Shown one piece after another: positions 3,779 through 42,505 of a DNA stretch of 46,147 nucleotides. The DNA lies in the IMG/VR virus record IMGVR_UViG_3300008262_000290, positions 1 to 46,147 of that record. The stretch is one strand, 5' to 3'. Origin of the DNA: a virus. How positions within the stretch are numbered: position 1 is the stretch's first letter; each line of letters starts with the position of its first letter. Both the position numbers and the translations under genes were made by a program. A model generated the notes under the pieces. That model did no database searches. It was not told the origin of the DNA and was given only the letters and a program-made list of their open reading frames with translations.

Positions 3779-4495
3779 ATGCCTTTACCAAAAATATCTA
3801 CACCAACCTATGAGTTGGAACTTCCTTCTAATGGAAAGAAAATTAGATATCGCCCTTTTCTTGTAAGAGAAGAAAAGATTCTTATCATCGCAATGGAAAG
3901 CGAAGATGATAAGCAAATCACAAATGCTGTTAAGGAAGTTATTTCTAACTGTATCCTAAGCAGAGGAATTAAAATCGAACAACTGTCTACATTTGATATT
4001 GAATATATCTTTTTGAACATCAGAGGTAAATCTGTTGGCGAAGAAGTGGAAGTTATTGTAACATGTCCAGATGATGGAACTACCCAAGTTCCCGTAACAA
4101 TCAACTTAGATGATATCAAAGTTGAGACTGGAAAGAACCATAATAGAGATATCAAACTTGATAATGATCTTATTCTGAGGATGAAGTATCCATCTATGGA
4201 AGAATTTGTGAAAAATAATTTCAGCACCGAAGAGCTAAACTTAGATAATACTTTTGATCTAATCTCTTCCTGCATTGAGCAAGTCTATTCTGAGGAAGAG
4301 TCTTGGTCAGCATCGGACTGTTCTAAGAAAGAACTTAGAGAATTTCTTGAGCAGTTGAGTTCAAAACAATTCAAAGAGATTGAAACATTCTTTGAGACAA
4401 TGCCAAAATTGTCTCATACTGTTACGGTGATGAATCCAAATACAAAGGTTGAAAATGAAATTGTTCTGGAGGGATTAAATGCTTTTTTCGGGTAA
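3779..4495 (+). CDS. 26: baseplate hub / tail chaperone protein gp26
   Basis: A 238-residue protein of the T4 gp26 family (208 aa in T4), needed for central hub assembly. The start PKISTPTYELELPSNGKKI, the segment RPFLVREEKILIIAMES and the cysteine-bearing VEVIVTCPDDGTTQVPV are typical. The last codons contain T-TTT-TTC followed by GGG and the stop, then a 10-bp stem-loop. A -1 slip there would bypass the stop and fuse gp26 to the following 60-aa frame (see the separate entry). By analogy with lambda G/GT tail chaperones, gp26 and its extended form may chaperone a tape-measure-like protein encoded next. The family call is firm; the chaperone idea is inference. Confidence 0.85.
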   Translation: MPLPKISTPTYELELPSNGKKIRYRPFLVREEKILIIAMESEDDKQITNAVKEVISNCILSRGIKIEQLSTFDIEYIFLNIRGKSVGEEVEVIVTCPDDGTTQVPVTINLDDIKVETGKNHNRDIKLDNDLILRMKYPSMEEFVKNNFSTEELNLDNTFDLISSCIEQVYSEEESWSASDCSKKELREFLEQLSSKQFKEIETFFETMPKLSHTVTVMNPNTKVENEIVLEGLNAFFG

Positions 4496-4525
4496 GTATG
4501 GCTCATGAAGATCTTGAGTCATACT
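4483..4525 (+). promoter_or_regulatory. -1 programmed ribosomal frameshift signal
   Basis: The slippery heptamer T-TTT-TTC is at 4483-4489, in the correct phase (codons GCT TTT TTC). A 5-base spacer (4490-4494) contains GGG and most of the stop. A 10-bp stem follows, pairing 4495-4504 with 4516-4525 with one G-U pair and an 11-base loop. After a -1 slip the frame continues CGG GTA AGT ATG into the 60-aa gene with no stop, giving a product of about 300 residues. Heptamer phase, spacer length and stem placement all match known -1 frameshift sites. Confidence 0.8.
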
Positions 4526-4680
4526 ACAAGATAAATTTTGCCTTGATGCAGCATCATAAATACTCATTGACTGAACTAGAGAATATGATACCTTGGGAAA
4601 GAGAAGTTTATCTCACTTTCCTAAAACAATATATTGAGGAAGAAAATTTAAAACAACAGCAATCTGAACTAAATGGCTGA
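4498..4680 (+). CDS. small hub-assembly protein, probably a gp26 frameshift extension
   Basis: A 60-residue, mainly helical, acidic frame: MAHEDLESYYKINFALMQHH, then SLTELENMIPWEREVYLTF. The MIPWERE motif resembles C-terminal T-domains of tail-assembly chaperones. There is no good ribosome binding site before ATG 4498. The frame is exactly -1 to gp26 and open back to the slippery site, so it is most simply read as the C-terminal extension of a gp26 frameshift product; independent translation by coupling is possible. Its end overlaps the start of the next gene by 8 bases. In T4, gp51 is another hub-assembly factor, but I cannot claim homology. Confidence 0.75.
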   Translation: MAHEDLESYYKINFALMQHHKYSLTELENMIPWEREVYLTFLKQYIEEENLKQQQSELNG

Positions 4681-6085
4681 GTTTTCATCGCCAATCACAA
4701 CTGGTTTAAGAGTAAGAAGAACTAGAGTATCCTCTTTTTCGTTTCTGAATCGTCCCCAAGACCAACAGCCAAGGGAAGATTATGGAACTACGCTTGCGCT
4801 GCAGCAGAATAGACTTGCTTTTGATAATATTAATTCTTCCCTTATAAATCTTAGTAATCAAGTTAGTGCTCTAAGTGCTTCTCTGAATGGTATTGCTGAA
4901 AGAGTAAGAGAAGATTCTGCATTAGATCAGGCAAGAGAATCTCAGAAGATAAGACAGGAAGAAATCTTAGCAGAGCAGAAAATCAGAGAAGGTAAAGAAA
5001 GCGTCGTTGAACGCAAAATGCAGTCTGCTCTTTTGACTCCGATTAAAAAAGTTGGCGATAAAGCAAGATTTACTCTAGGTAGATTATCAAGCTTCTTTAT
5101 GATTCTCCTAGGTGGTTTCCTAGGAAATATGGCGCTATCAACTATTAGTGCCTTGATATCTGGTGATAAAGAAAGACTAGAAGAACTTAAGCAAAAGTTC
5201 TTGAAGAATATTGGTGTTGTAACTGGTATTTTCTTATTGTTTAGTGGTGGATTTAGAACTATACTTGGTTATCTTACCAGACTTACTTCTAAGTTGGGTA
5301 GTTCTATTTTTAGAAACTTATTAATTAGACCTGTTGCTGCACTACTCAATTTAGTTAAAACTGCTGCTGCAGGTATAGCGGCAGGAATAGGTTTAAAACC
5401 AAAAACAAAACCAACTCCAACAAAACCAAAACCATCAGCACCACCAGCAAAAACTTCACCTGGAGGTAAAGCAGGATCTAGTGGAGCTCCACCTGCTTCA
5501 TCTGGTTCTAAAGGAAGTCCTTTTGGTTCATCAGTACTTAAAGGTGGTTTATTCGCTGCAGGTGCGTCTGCAATATACGATACGCTTTTTGGATCATCTG
5601 TTGGTGAAATGATCGCTGGTTCTGGTACAGGTTTTGCTGCTGGCGGTGCTCTATCAGCATTAAACTATGTTCTAGGTCCAAAATTCACAATACCGTTAAC
5701 AATAGCTGGAACATTTGCTATTCCAGCATTGATTGGTCTTGGTAAGGAATTTTATAAGGGAAGCGATATTGGTAAAGATAATCCATTCTTGAATACAGAG
5801 ATTAATTTACTAGATGCGTTTACTGGACAAGGACCATTATTTAAAACACCATCTCCAGAAATAAATGCACCACCAAAAAAATCTAATGATAATCTCCAGT
5901 CATTAAAAAGTTCAGACTCTGGAGGTAATGTAACAGTAATTAATAATGAATCTACTGCTAGTGCAAGAAATGTACCAACACAAGATCTAGGTTCTGCTAA
6001 CTATCTGCCTAGCATTGCTACTTCAGATCCAGATAATTTTCACAAGTATACTTCGTATCGTTACTTTAATACTGGATGGGCATAA
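4673..6085 (+). CDS. hub / tape-measure-like structural protein
   Basis: A 470-residue protein not matched to a T4 gene with certainty. Residues ~35-125 form a charged coiled coil (SSLINLSNQVSALSASLNG onward). Residues ~130-235 hold three hydrophobic stretches (FFMILLGGFLGNMALS; VVTGIFLLFSGGF; VAALLNLVKTAAAGIAAGIG). Next is a lysine-proline-rich linker (KPKTKPTPTKPKP), a glycine/alanine-rich hydrophobic region, and a C-terminal beta strand (GGNVTVINNES). Coiled coil plus hydrophobic segments is typical of tape-measure proteins, and the gene directly follows the frameshifted gp26 pair, as tape-measure genes follow chaperone genes in other tailed phages. It shares a layout with the next gene. 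A gp29-like role is inference. Confidence 0.7.
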   Translation: MAEFSSPITTGLRVRRTRVSSFSFLNRPQDQQPREDYGTTLALQQNRLAFDNINSSLINLSNQVSALSASLNGIAERVREDSALDQARESQKIRQEEILAEQKIREGKESVVERKMQSALLTPIKKVGDKARFTLGRLSSFFMILLGGFLGNMALSTISALISGDKERLEELKQKFLKNIGVVTGIFLLFSGGFRTILGYLTRLTSKLGSSIFRNLLIRPVAALLNLVKTAAAGIAAGIGLKPKTKPTPTKPKPSAPPAKTSPGGKAGSSGAPPASSGSKGSPFGSSVLKGGLFAAGASAIYDTLFGSSVGEMIAGSGTGFAAGGALSALNYVLGPKFTIPLTIAGTFAIPALIGLGKEFYKGSDIGKDNPFLNTEINLLDAFTGQGPLFKTPSPEINAPPKKSNDNLQSLKSSDSGGNVTVINNESTASARNVPTQDLGSANYLPSIATSDPDNFHKYTSYRYFNTGWA

Positions 6086-6090
6086 GTTAA

Positions 6091-7644
6091 ATGGCGTATC
6101 GTTCTTCCATAAATGTAACTAGCATTAATAAGTCTTTATCTGGACTTAACAAAAGTCTTCTTAGGACAAGAGAATCTGCTGCAACTGTTAGAACAACAAT
6201 TATACAGTCTACAACAAATAAGAGAAAATCTTTTTCAGCGAGTATAAAAGCATTTAATCAGAGAAGAGAAGCGACAAGAAGAAAAGAAAGAGAGGATATT
6301 GTAGAGGCATCATCAATTCAGGGTGCAATATCAAGATCTACTAGTGCTGTAGCAAATAGCACAAGAGGTTTCTTGGGTAGAATACTTGATTTTCTTGGAA
6401 CATTACTAGTTGGATGGGCTTTGACCAATCTCCCAAATATCATTAAAATGGCTCAAGCTCTCATTGAGAGGATGAAGACATATTTCCAATATCTCAATAA
6501 TTTTAGAGAGGGTCTTCAAAACTTTTTGATAGGATTTGGTGATATGGTTGGTGAAATTTCTTCTGGTCTTGTTAGATTTGATTTTAATGCTGTAAGAGTA
6601 GCAGTAGACAAAGGAATGAATCAAATGAAGGATTCCTTCGTCCAAATGGATAATTCAATAAATTCTGTAATACTTTTACTTAAGCAGGATGTTAAGAAAT
6701 TACTTGGAATTGAGGATTATGAATTTGATAGAGGTAGTGATGATGGTGGAGGTGGTGGAGTAGATCCTGGAGGAGGTTCAGCACAACTTCCAGATCCAAA
6801 GTCTGCTGAAATGTATCGTATCGCTGCGGCACTCACCACAGAAGGTAGTAGTGACCAGGGATACGCCGACATGCTGCAGGTGGTTGCTAATAGAGTTGCA
6901 CACCCTGGATATGGTACTAACTATACTGATGTTCTTGGTGCTCCCGGACAGTTTCAAGGTGTGTACACTAGAGGTAGTGGAGCATTTAAATCAATACGTA
7001 CTTTAGGGCAAGCATCTGCATGGTCTGGTCAAAGTCAGGCAACTCTATTAAAAGTTATTAGTCTTCTATCCGATCCAAAAAGACAAGCAAGTGCAGCAAA
7101 ATTTGTTGGCGGTGCTCTAGAGTTTAGAGGTAGTCCAGCAACAGTTAGGGCAGTTAATAGTGATAGCGATCCACGAAATAATATTCGGGCAGATGCTAAT
7201 GGAATAATTCCTGGTTCCGTCTGGCGTGGTACAAACCAAGATAACCAGTTCCTTGTGGATCCATCCAAAGATCCGATGCTTAGTGGTCCAGCATCACTTA
7301 ACCTACCAAAACCACAACCACAAGCACCACCACCAAAAAGCCCCCCAAAACGAAATACTGCTATGCCTGATGCGAGTAAAGAGGGTGCTCCCGGAATTCC
7401 TGGAGATCCTAAGTCTCCAAAAATTGGTGAATGGGTAGGTTCATCTAAAAAAGACTATTCATCTCAACTTGCTATGGCTTTGCAAAATGCAAAACCACAA
7501 CCAAGAACAAATACTTTAATTTTAAATAATACTGTAAAGCAAACAGAATATGTTGGTGGAGAAACAAATAGTGGTTCTGTTATTATAGTTGCTGGGGTAA
7601 ATAGTAATAATATAAAAAATAAGTTCCTTTCTAGTGTAGTATAA
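6091..7644 (+). CDS. hub protein with SleB-type cell-wall hydrolase domain
   Basis: A 517-residue protein. The N-terminal 90 residues are basic and helical. A hydrophobic segment (GFLGRILDFLGTLLVGWALT) parallels one in the preceding protein. A glycine-rich linker (DDGGGGGVDPGGG) leads to a globular domain at about 243-390 beginning MYRIAAALTTEGSSDQGYAD, with VVANRVAHPGYGTNYTDVL and APGQFQGVY. The AALTTEG...VVANRV...GQF pattern is that of SleB/CwlJ-type hydrolases (Hydrolase_2), which cut peptidoglycan; the glutamate in TTEG is the likely catalytic residue. The tail is proline-rich and ends with NTLILNNTV. The domain call is good; a role in wall penetration at injection is inferred. Confidence 0.75.
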   Translation: MAYRSSINVTSINKSLSGLNKSLLRTRESAATVRTTIIQSTTNKRKSFSASIKAFNQRREATRRKEREDIVEASSIQGAISRSTSAVANSTRGFLGRILDFLGTLLVGWALTNLPNIIKMAQALIERMKTYFQYLNNFREGLQNFLIGFGDMVGEISSGLVRFDFNAVRVAVDKGMNQMKDSFVQMDNSINSVILLLKQDVKKLLGIEDYEFDRGSDDGGGGGVDPGGGSAQLPDPKSAEMYRIAAALTTEGSSDQGYADMLQVVANRVAHPGYGTNYTDVLGAPGQFQGVYTRGSGAFKSIRTLGQASAWSGQSQATLLKVISLLSDPKRQASAAKFVGGALEFRGSPATVRAVNSDSDPRNNIRADANGIIPGSVWRGTNQDNQFLVDPSKDPMLSGPASLNLPKPQPQAPPPKSPPKRNTAMPDASKEGAPGIPGDPKSPKIGEWVGSSKKDYSSQLAMALQNAKPQPRTNTLILNNTVKQTEYVGGETNSGSVIIVAGVNSNNIKNKFLSSVV

Positions 7645-19714: not shown

Positions 19715-20488
19715 ATGGCTGCATTAAATTTTCCTGCTAGTCCTACTTTAAATGATGAGTATAACGCTAATGGTGCTACTTGGCGTTGGAATGGAACTGC
19801 TTGGGTAAGACTTGGTGATCCTGGAGCACAAGGTGCTCAAGGTTCCACAGGTGCTACTGGTGCTCAAGGTGCTCAAGGGACCGCTGGTGCTCAAGGTGCT
19901 GTAGGGGCTCAAGGTGCTCAAGGTTCCACAGGTGCTACTGGTGCTCAAGGTTCCACAGGTGCTACTGGCGCACAAGGTTCAGTAGGAGCACAAGGAACCG
20001 CTGGTGCTCAAGGTGCTACTGGTGCTACTGGTGCTCAGGGTGCTGTAGGTGCTACTGGTGCTCAGGGTGCTGCAGGTGCATCAGGATCTCAAGGTACTAT
20101 AGGTGCTCAAGGTGCTACTGGTGCTCAGGGTGCTGTAGGTGCTACTGGTGCTCAAGGTGCTCAAGGTGTACAGGGTTCACCTGGAACTCTAACTCTTAAT
20201 GAAAAGTCTTCAAATTATACATTAGTAGCATCAGATAATAGTAAAATTATTTCAATTACTGCAGCAATTAGTATCACCGTTCCATCTGGAGTATTTTCTG
20301 CTGGAGATACTGTAACCATAGTAAATAACACAAATGCAACCAGATCAATAGTTCAAGGATCTGGTGTTACTATGTACACTGCAGGAACTTCTACTACAGG
20401 AAATAAATCTTTAATTCAAAGAGGAATTGCTACGGTAATTTGCGTATCTTCCGATACTTTTTTCATTAGTGGAGCTGGTCTTGTATAA
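19715..20488 (+). CDS. collagen-like fibre stalk protein (module 2)
   Basis: A 257-residue protein. A short N-terminal head ([20 protein letters not shown] then [13 protein letters not shown]) is followed by about 40 uninterrupted Gly-X-Y triplets (residues 37-156, mostly GAQ, GAT and GST). A ~95-residue C-terminal beta cap runs from [16 protein letters not shown] to FFISGAGLV. The NG.W.WNGTAW.R head is shared with module 3 and replaces the long head of module 1. The stop overlaps the start of the tip gene (TAATG), so stalk and tip are probably translated together. Confidence 0.85.
19823..20182 (+). repeat. collagen-like Gly-X-Y repeat, 40 triplets
   Basis: A 360-base tract of 9-base units encoding [12 protein letters not shown] and GSP triplets in unbroken phase. 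It shares near-identical blocks with the tracts at 16916 and 22689. Confidence 0.95.
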
Positions 20489-41899: not shown

Positions 41900-42505
41900 A
41901 TGGTAAATCCATACAGATTTTATACCTATGCATATTTGCGTGAGGATAAAACACCTTATTACATAGGTAAAGGGACTGGATATAGAATATATCAAAAAAG
42001 AGGAAGACCTTGTTATAAACCAAAAGATGAGACCAGAATAATATTTCTCAAACAAAATTTAACCGAAGAAGAAGCATTCAAGCACGAAAAGTATATGATT
42101 GCTGTCTTTGGAAGAAAAGATTTAGGAACAGGTATTTTATATAATAAAACTGATGGTGGTGATGGTGTTTCTGGAAGAATAATAACTATTGGTTCTTTTA
42201 CTGGAAAAACACATTCGGAAGAAGTAAGAAGAAAAATTAGTCAATCAAAAAAGGGAAAACAACTTTCAGAAGAACATAAAAGAAAAGTTGGTGATGCTTT
42301 TAGAGGTAAACCAATAACAGAAGAGCATAAAAGAAAAATAAGTAACTCAAAGTTGGGGAAAAAACATTCAGAAGAAACTAAAATAAAATGTGGAATAAAA
42401 AATAAAGGTAAAAAGTGGTGGAGTGATGGGAAAAAATGTAAATTTATGATAGAGTGTCCTGGTGAGGGGTGGGTTGCTGGTCGTAAAATAAAAAAGGACA
42501 GTTGA
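41900..42505 (+). CDS. GIY-YIG homing endonuclease
   Basis: A 201-residue protein. Residues ~5-95 are the GIY-YIG nuclease domain: [20 protein letters not shown] has the two signature strands (YTYAY for [11 protein letters not shown] for YIG). They are followed by an arginine (GYRIY) and the glutamate in [16 protein letters not shown]. Residues ~98-175 contain NUMOD3-type DNA-binding repeats ([53 protein letters not shown]). The C-terminus is [20 protein letters not shown]. It is free-standing, not in an intron, and carries its own late promoter and terminators, like T4 seg genes. Its A-rich codons differ from the neighbours, fitting mobility. Confidence 0.88.

Follow-up and report, generated by a model that had tools for sequence, protein, structure and literature searches.

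A predicted programmed −1 frameshift at the 3' end of a gp26-like tail assembly chaperone gene, widely conserved among relatives of phage T4

The window, a stretch of 46,147 nucleotides of DNA from a T4-like cyanophage (IMG/VR record IMGVR_UViG_3300008262_000290, positions 1 to 46,147), carries on its plus strand a gp26-like gene at 3779-4495. The encoded protein of 238 amino acids matches PF12322 (Pfam, E = 4.3e-76) and phrog_150 (PHROG, E = 3.9e-83) and is the putative short tail assembly chaperone (TAC-N, or 'G'). The gene ends in the codons AAT GCT TTT TTC GGG TAA, which bears out the preliminary description of a −1 slippery heptamer, T_TTT_TTC (X_XXY_YYZ), in phase with gp26 at 4483-4489; its assignment draws on sequence and conservation. 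One sense codon (GGG) separates the heptamer from the stop codon TAA at 4493-4495. The heptamer is followed by the expected spacer of 5 nt (4490-4494) and by a stem-loop, the presumed stimulator, at 4495-4525, which begins on the final base of the gp26 stop codon. The stem formerly described as 10 bp (4495-4504 with 4516-4525) is present and is one pair longer, with 11 bp (4495-4505 with 4515-4525), one of them G-U, enclosing a loop of 9 nt.

A slip of one base at the heptamer leads, as claimed, into a frame without a stop that reads FF-RVS-MAHED and remains open to 4680. This −1 frame (4489-4680, plus strand) would supply a C-terminal 'T' domain of 63 residues after Phe-Phe, comprising RVS and a further 60 amino acids, and the predicted fusion (TAC-NC, or 'GT') would read ...NAFF-RVS-MAHEDLESYYKINF... 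with a total length of 300 amino acids. The tryptic peptide VENEIVLEGLNAFFR is predicted to be specific to the frameshift, and a peptide ending in NAFFG to normal termination. If annotated separately, the 60-aa part would form a gp51-like open reading frame ('baseplate hub assembly catalyst') at 4498-4680 on the plus strand, with an ATG at 4498, and it matches phrog_634, the family of that name (E = 4.1e-27). A further match of this part lies at the C-terminal end of the gp26 family's own profile, phrog_150, which indicates that fusions in one frame exist within that family.

A tape-measure-like gene had been said to follow. The next gene (4673-6085, plus strand) encodes 470 amino acids, is a relative of P-SSM2_016 and contains four hydrophobic stretches; these and its position make it a plausible candidate tape measure, whereas no Pfam or PHROG match was obtained for it. 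In Cr30, the annotated tape measure lies two genes further on. Directly after the candidate gene, a protein of 517 amino acids (6091-7644) gave a weak match to Cell Wall Hydrolase (PF07486, E = 4e-4, below Pfam's cut-off) and is possibly a tail-associated hydrolase.

The bare 7-mer is not rare, occurring 11 times in the window against 17 expected by shuffling, and the case for frameshifting rests on comparison with relatives. Among open reading frames of at least 100 amino acids in the window, an in-phase T_TTT_TTC was found in just two, gp26 and a collagen-like tail fibre gene (19715-20488) in which the heptamer lies at 20458-20464, nine codons before the stop. The latter serves as an internal negative control and was discarded as a frameshift signal, since its −1 frame meets a stop after three codons. 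Two other in-phase heptamers near gene ends were also rejected: the −1 frame stops at once after A_AAA_AAT at 7614 and closes after 12 codons following A_AAA_AAG at 42490, the latter four codons before the stop of a homing-endonuclease-like ORF (41900-42505, phrog_314). What exceeds chance at the end of gp26 is the phase, place and conservation of the heptamer.

Related loci were collected from IMG/VR with four gp26 queries and from phage records. T_TTT_TTN was in phase at the gene end in 186 of 192 loci with a gp26 match; two of the remainder run off the contig and four have no site (L021, T4, D532 and Maynard), the gp26 reading of L021 being cut by a premature stop that is probably an assembly error. 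The 186 loci represent 156 distinct junctions, which come from related sequences and are not independent events: TTTTTTC in 146, TTTTTTT in nine and TTTTTTG in one. Very small probabilities obtained by counting them as independent were accordingly set aside as evidence. The lineages with the heptamer include phages of cyanobacteria, Pelagibacter (L193), Caulobacter (L184), Rhizobium (L186), Acidovorax (L187), Pseudomonas (L185), Aeromonas (L188) and Vibrio (L084, L189 and L194). The stop codon lies one codon past the heptamer in 145 of the 156 junctions and directly after it in ten. In Pelagibacter phage Mosig (L193), L252 and L263 the zero frame continues for about eight codons past the heptamer before a stop is reached, indicating that a stop immediately beside the heptamer is dispensable.

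A second, more divergent set consisted of genome contigs, mostly from metagenome bins and probably of phage origin, with gp26 identities of 31-72%. Here T_TTT_TTN was present in 44 of 44 readable junctions, with C, T, A or G as the last base. Across the loci examined, unreadable junctions were those of L177, L178 and L273, which run off the contig, and of L248, which has an N at the site. The gp26-bearing contigs L228-L273 have been placed in genome bins under archaea, Planctomycetota, Flavobacteria and other labels and are probably misbinned phage contigs; for L242 the source is a Nonlabens isolate, in whose assembly gp26 lies on a contig of 188 kb.

The most distant relatives found were the Ackermannviridae-like phages. 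No canonical slippery heptamer was present at the end of the gp26-like gene in L086, Maynard or L209-L226. Both frames are kept in all of these, and ATT TTC AT[TC] TAA is nearly invariant at the junction. Some of L086 and L209-L226 have TAATG, whereas in others a usual start codon is lacking close by. These phages may rely on another kind of recoding or initiation. The preliminary description had named relatives that keep both genes without the heptamer as evidence against the frameshift; the Ackermannviridae-like phages are such relatives, whereas all nearer relatives keep the site.

The downstream structure is less uniform. The minimum free energy of 4483-4550 is −19.1 kcal/mol (z = −3.1 against dinucleotide shuffles). 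Among 52 distinct relatives of the window's type, 97.0% of cells were paired, compared with 29-43% when the partners were slid, and in a second group of 25 relatives a shorter stem is formed in another register (GGTCC/GGACC, GGTTC/GAACC or GATCC/GGATC); both groups were picked for having stems, so that paired percentages are biased upward and the double changes are the stronger point. In the window's clade, compensatory changes were evident: stem pair 21-35 is U-A in 41 relatives, G-C in six and A-U in three, and where its 5' side has changed silently the 3' side has followed at the cost of an amino acid replacement (Glu to Ala or Val). In the second group, double changes were found at four of the five pairs. 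In S-H34 and Cr30 a similar place is occupied by long stems whose sequences are unrelated. The 50 nt past the heptamer have a mean folding energy of −11.2 kcal/mol, against −6.8 kcal/mol for windows of the same genes, and fall among the lowest 5% of folding energies in 78 of 143 junctions. A simple scan found no hairpin of at least 4 bp in 17 of the 143 junctions, and many lineages have no recognisable stem. A universal stem was rejected, as the 10-bp stem of the window retains at least eight pairs in only 60 of 144 distinct junctions. An Rfam search returned nothing beyond a weak match without meaning. Structure about 5-9 nt downstream is a property of the window and its clade, with a second register in another clade, and the stem is clade-specific. 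Of the conservation foreseen for heptamer, spacer and stem, the heptamer proved invariant in the nearer relatives, whereas the stem is confined to particular lineages.

Phage T4 provides a natural control. In T4 and its relatives gp26 and gp51 are divergently oriented, on opposite strands, and a frameshift therefore cannot join them. The G-domain family aligned with the T4 gp26 family (hhalign, E = 3.4e-29), and the profile of the predicted fusion aligned from end to end with that of the gp51 family (hhalign, 99.7%, E = 1.9e-25), the Phe-Phe-Arg junction of the fusion falling near Val-Phe-Lys of gp51. The T-domain profile alone matched the gp51 C-terminus (hhalign, E = 5.8e-10) and did not match gp26. 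The gp26 and gp51 families match one another (E = 1.1e-20), and PF12322 covers residues 1-201 of T4-type gp51 (E = 1e-55). The tail-chaperone-like fusion that had been proposed accordingly has end-to-end homology to a natural fusion in one frame, T4 gp51. Nine T4-type gp26 sequences keep Phe-Phe, all as TTC TTT after G or A, so that the amino acids are kept and the slippery site is gone. The preliminary description was right to note that frameshifting is not known for T4 gp26, for T4 has a separate gene for each chaperone form, gp26 for the short and gp51 for the long one.

Structural comparison was less informative. Neither a search of solved structures by sequence, using profiles of gp26 and gp51, nor a Foldseek search of the PDB with gp26 and gp51 models yielded a significant match; the gp26 model scored insignificantly against the HK97 tail assembly chaperone 2ob9 (E = 1.8, probability 0.41). 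In a viral structure library, the gp26 model matched mostly gp26-like or uncharacterised phage proteins, which places it in a widespread family without naming a function.

Databases annotate two genes at this junction, and gp26 and the 60-aa gp51-like protein could in principle be initiated separately, with the heptamer doing no more than encode Phe-Phe. The ATG at 4498 would suit such an arrangement, as would the overlaps in some relatives, including the schizoT4 phages, in which gp26 overlaps the next ORF as TAATG. The codons at the site argue strongly against it. Elsewhere in the same genes, Phe-Phe (n = 159) is written TTCTTT 110 times, TTTTTT 36 times, TTCTTC 11 times and TTTTTC twice, whereas TTTTTC is used in 146 of the 156 junctions at the heptamer. 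The preceding codon is always NNT (AGT, TCT, GCT, GAT, AAT or GGT in the 156 junctions), its third base being fixed as T while its amino acid varies; across the same genes only 33% of Ala codons end in T. Those T4-type phages with a separate fusion gene keep Phe-Phe and not the slippery codons. All 151 of 151 junctions have a −1 frame that stays open for 47 codons, as the frameshift model leads one to expect, and each other frame is closed in all 151. In 21 of the 156 relatives no ATG, GTG or TTG occurs among the first codons of the −1 frame (up to the 17th), ahead of the T-domain core, and in a further 15 GTG or TTG are the sole candidates; where a usual start is lacking, no evident route other than frameshifting leads to a complete T domain. 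In L082 (syn9), L083 (C48C1) and L195 (ACG-2014d), the gp51-like 'gene' has been annotated from an internal Met in the conserved domain or has been missed, in the syn9 and C48C1 records beginning inside the conserved core, and these annotations are probably wrong. Two separately initiated genes are consequently very improbable.

It is somewhat less improbable, but still unlikely, that both routes are used, the frameshift fusion being accompanied by some independent initiation at 4498 that would yield a free T domain. The Met encoded by the ATG at 4498 is retained in the clade of the window (SMAHED), and termination of gp26 a few bases upstream would make re-initiation possible; yet Leu replaces this Met in syn9-like phages and many other lineages, and a free T domain has no evident function. 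A change of frame by the RNA polymerase rather than the ribosome has also to be weighed, as the run of six T (U) is a possible site of transcriptional slippage and nine relatives have a run of seven. Runs of six bases are, however, short for polymerase slippage. The T run is moreover held in codon phase beside a stop, and the covarying stems lie downstream at spacings typical of ribosomal signals, so that transcriptional slippage is hardly credible as the source of the frame change.

Programmed −1 ribosomal frameshifting at T_TTT_TTC, through which one gene would supply a tail assembly chaperone in two forms, is therefore regarded as highly probable from the sequence comparisons, and the preliminary model for gp26 is supported by the heptamer, the open −1 frame, the stem covariation and the homology to gp51 alike. 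Most ribosomes would stop at 4493-4495 and release the short form of 238 amino acids (gp26, TAC-N). Some would slip back by one base, with two Phe tRNAs on TTT TTC, aided by the stem-loop 5 nt downstream and perhaps also by the adjacent stop codon, and would then read the −1 frame to produce the 300-aa form with the T domain (TAC-NC). If the two forms work as lambda gpG and gpGT do, the tape measure would be bound by many copies of the short form and few of the long one, and tube or hub subunits would be brought in by the T domain. From the genetic signal and its conservation, the stem covariation in two clades and the homologies of the fusion to gp51 and of gp26 to T4 gp26, we infer slippage itself, together with its rate, the stoichiometry of the products and their role in tail assembly.

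In lambda, the tail assembly chaperones gpG and gpGT are made by a −1 frameshift, and T4 has been singled out as departing from a G/GT frameshift that is otherwise near-universal among phages with long tails (PMC5009743). The locus described here would share with lambda the −1 frameshift and the logic of a short and a long chaperone; no sequence similarity was detected, and the window has T_TTT_TTC with a clade-specific stem. The hub assembly chaperones gp26 and gp51 of T4 (PMC3004832) are alike in that gp26 corresponds to gp26 and the fusion to gp51 end to end, and differ in being two divergent genes with no frameshift. The T4-like TAC genes treated by Vladimirov, Gautam and Davidson (2022, Virology 566:9-15), as represented in two papers that cite them, concern the same proteins: the PRFect paper (PMC10274946) attributes to them the statement that some T4-like phages have a short gene and a longer fusion gene without frameshifting, and the paper on Pseudomonas phage Adele (PMC12846349) that poly-T slippery signals are known in T4-like TAC-N genes. 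Adele and its relatives themselves have an invariant poly-T motif at the 3' end of TAC-N and a −1 frame open in all genomes; the motif differs (GTTTTT), and the phages belong to another family. Judging by these citing papers, both halves of the idea, the two-gene solution of T4 and the poly-T signals, are already in print, and the unification of T4 hub assembly with the G/GT scheme put forward in the preliminary description, correct as a model, had been reached by Vladimirov et al. What is added here, with the overlap gauged from the same citing papers, is breadth, covarying stems and clean controls.

The frameshift signal at this locus is unusually clear and very widely conserved. Considering the phages of cyanobacteria, Pelagibacter, Caulobacter, Rhizobium, Acidovorax, Pseudomonas, Aeromonas and Vibrio, the T_TTT_TTN frameshift was probably ancestral for gp26/gp51 across the T4 superfamily outside the Ackermannviridae-like group, with stems repeatedly reinvented in new registers and the two genes of T4 arising when the gene was duplicated and its slippery codons were then lost. 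The heptamer being fixed while the stems change, these phages offer a natural series for examining what a −1 signal requires. What would be annotated as a gp51-like 'gene' in hundreds of cyanophage genomes probably represents the end of a frameshift product rather than an independent gene. A large share of the relatives of T4 would use a frameshift of the G/GT type where T4 has two genes instead, and the long-obscure hub proteins gp26 and gp51 may therefore be read as the short and the long chaperone.
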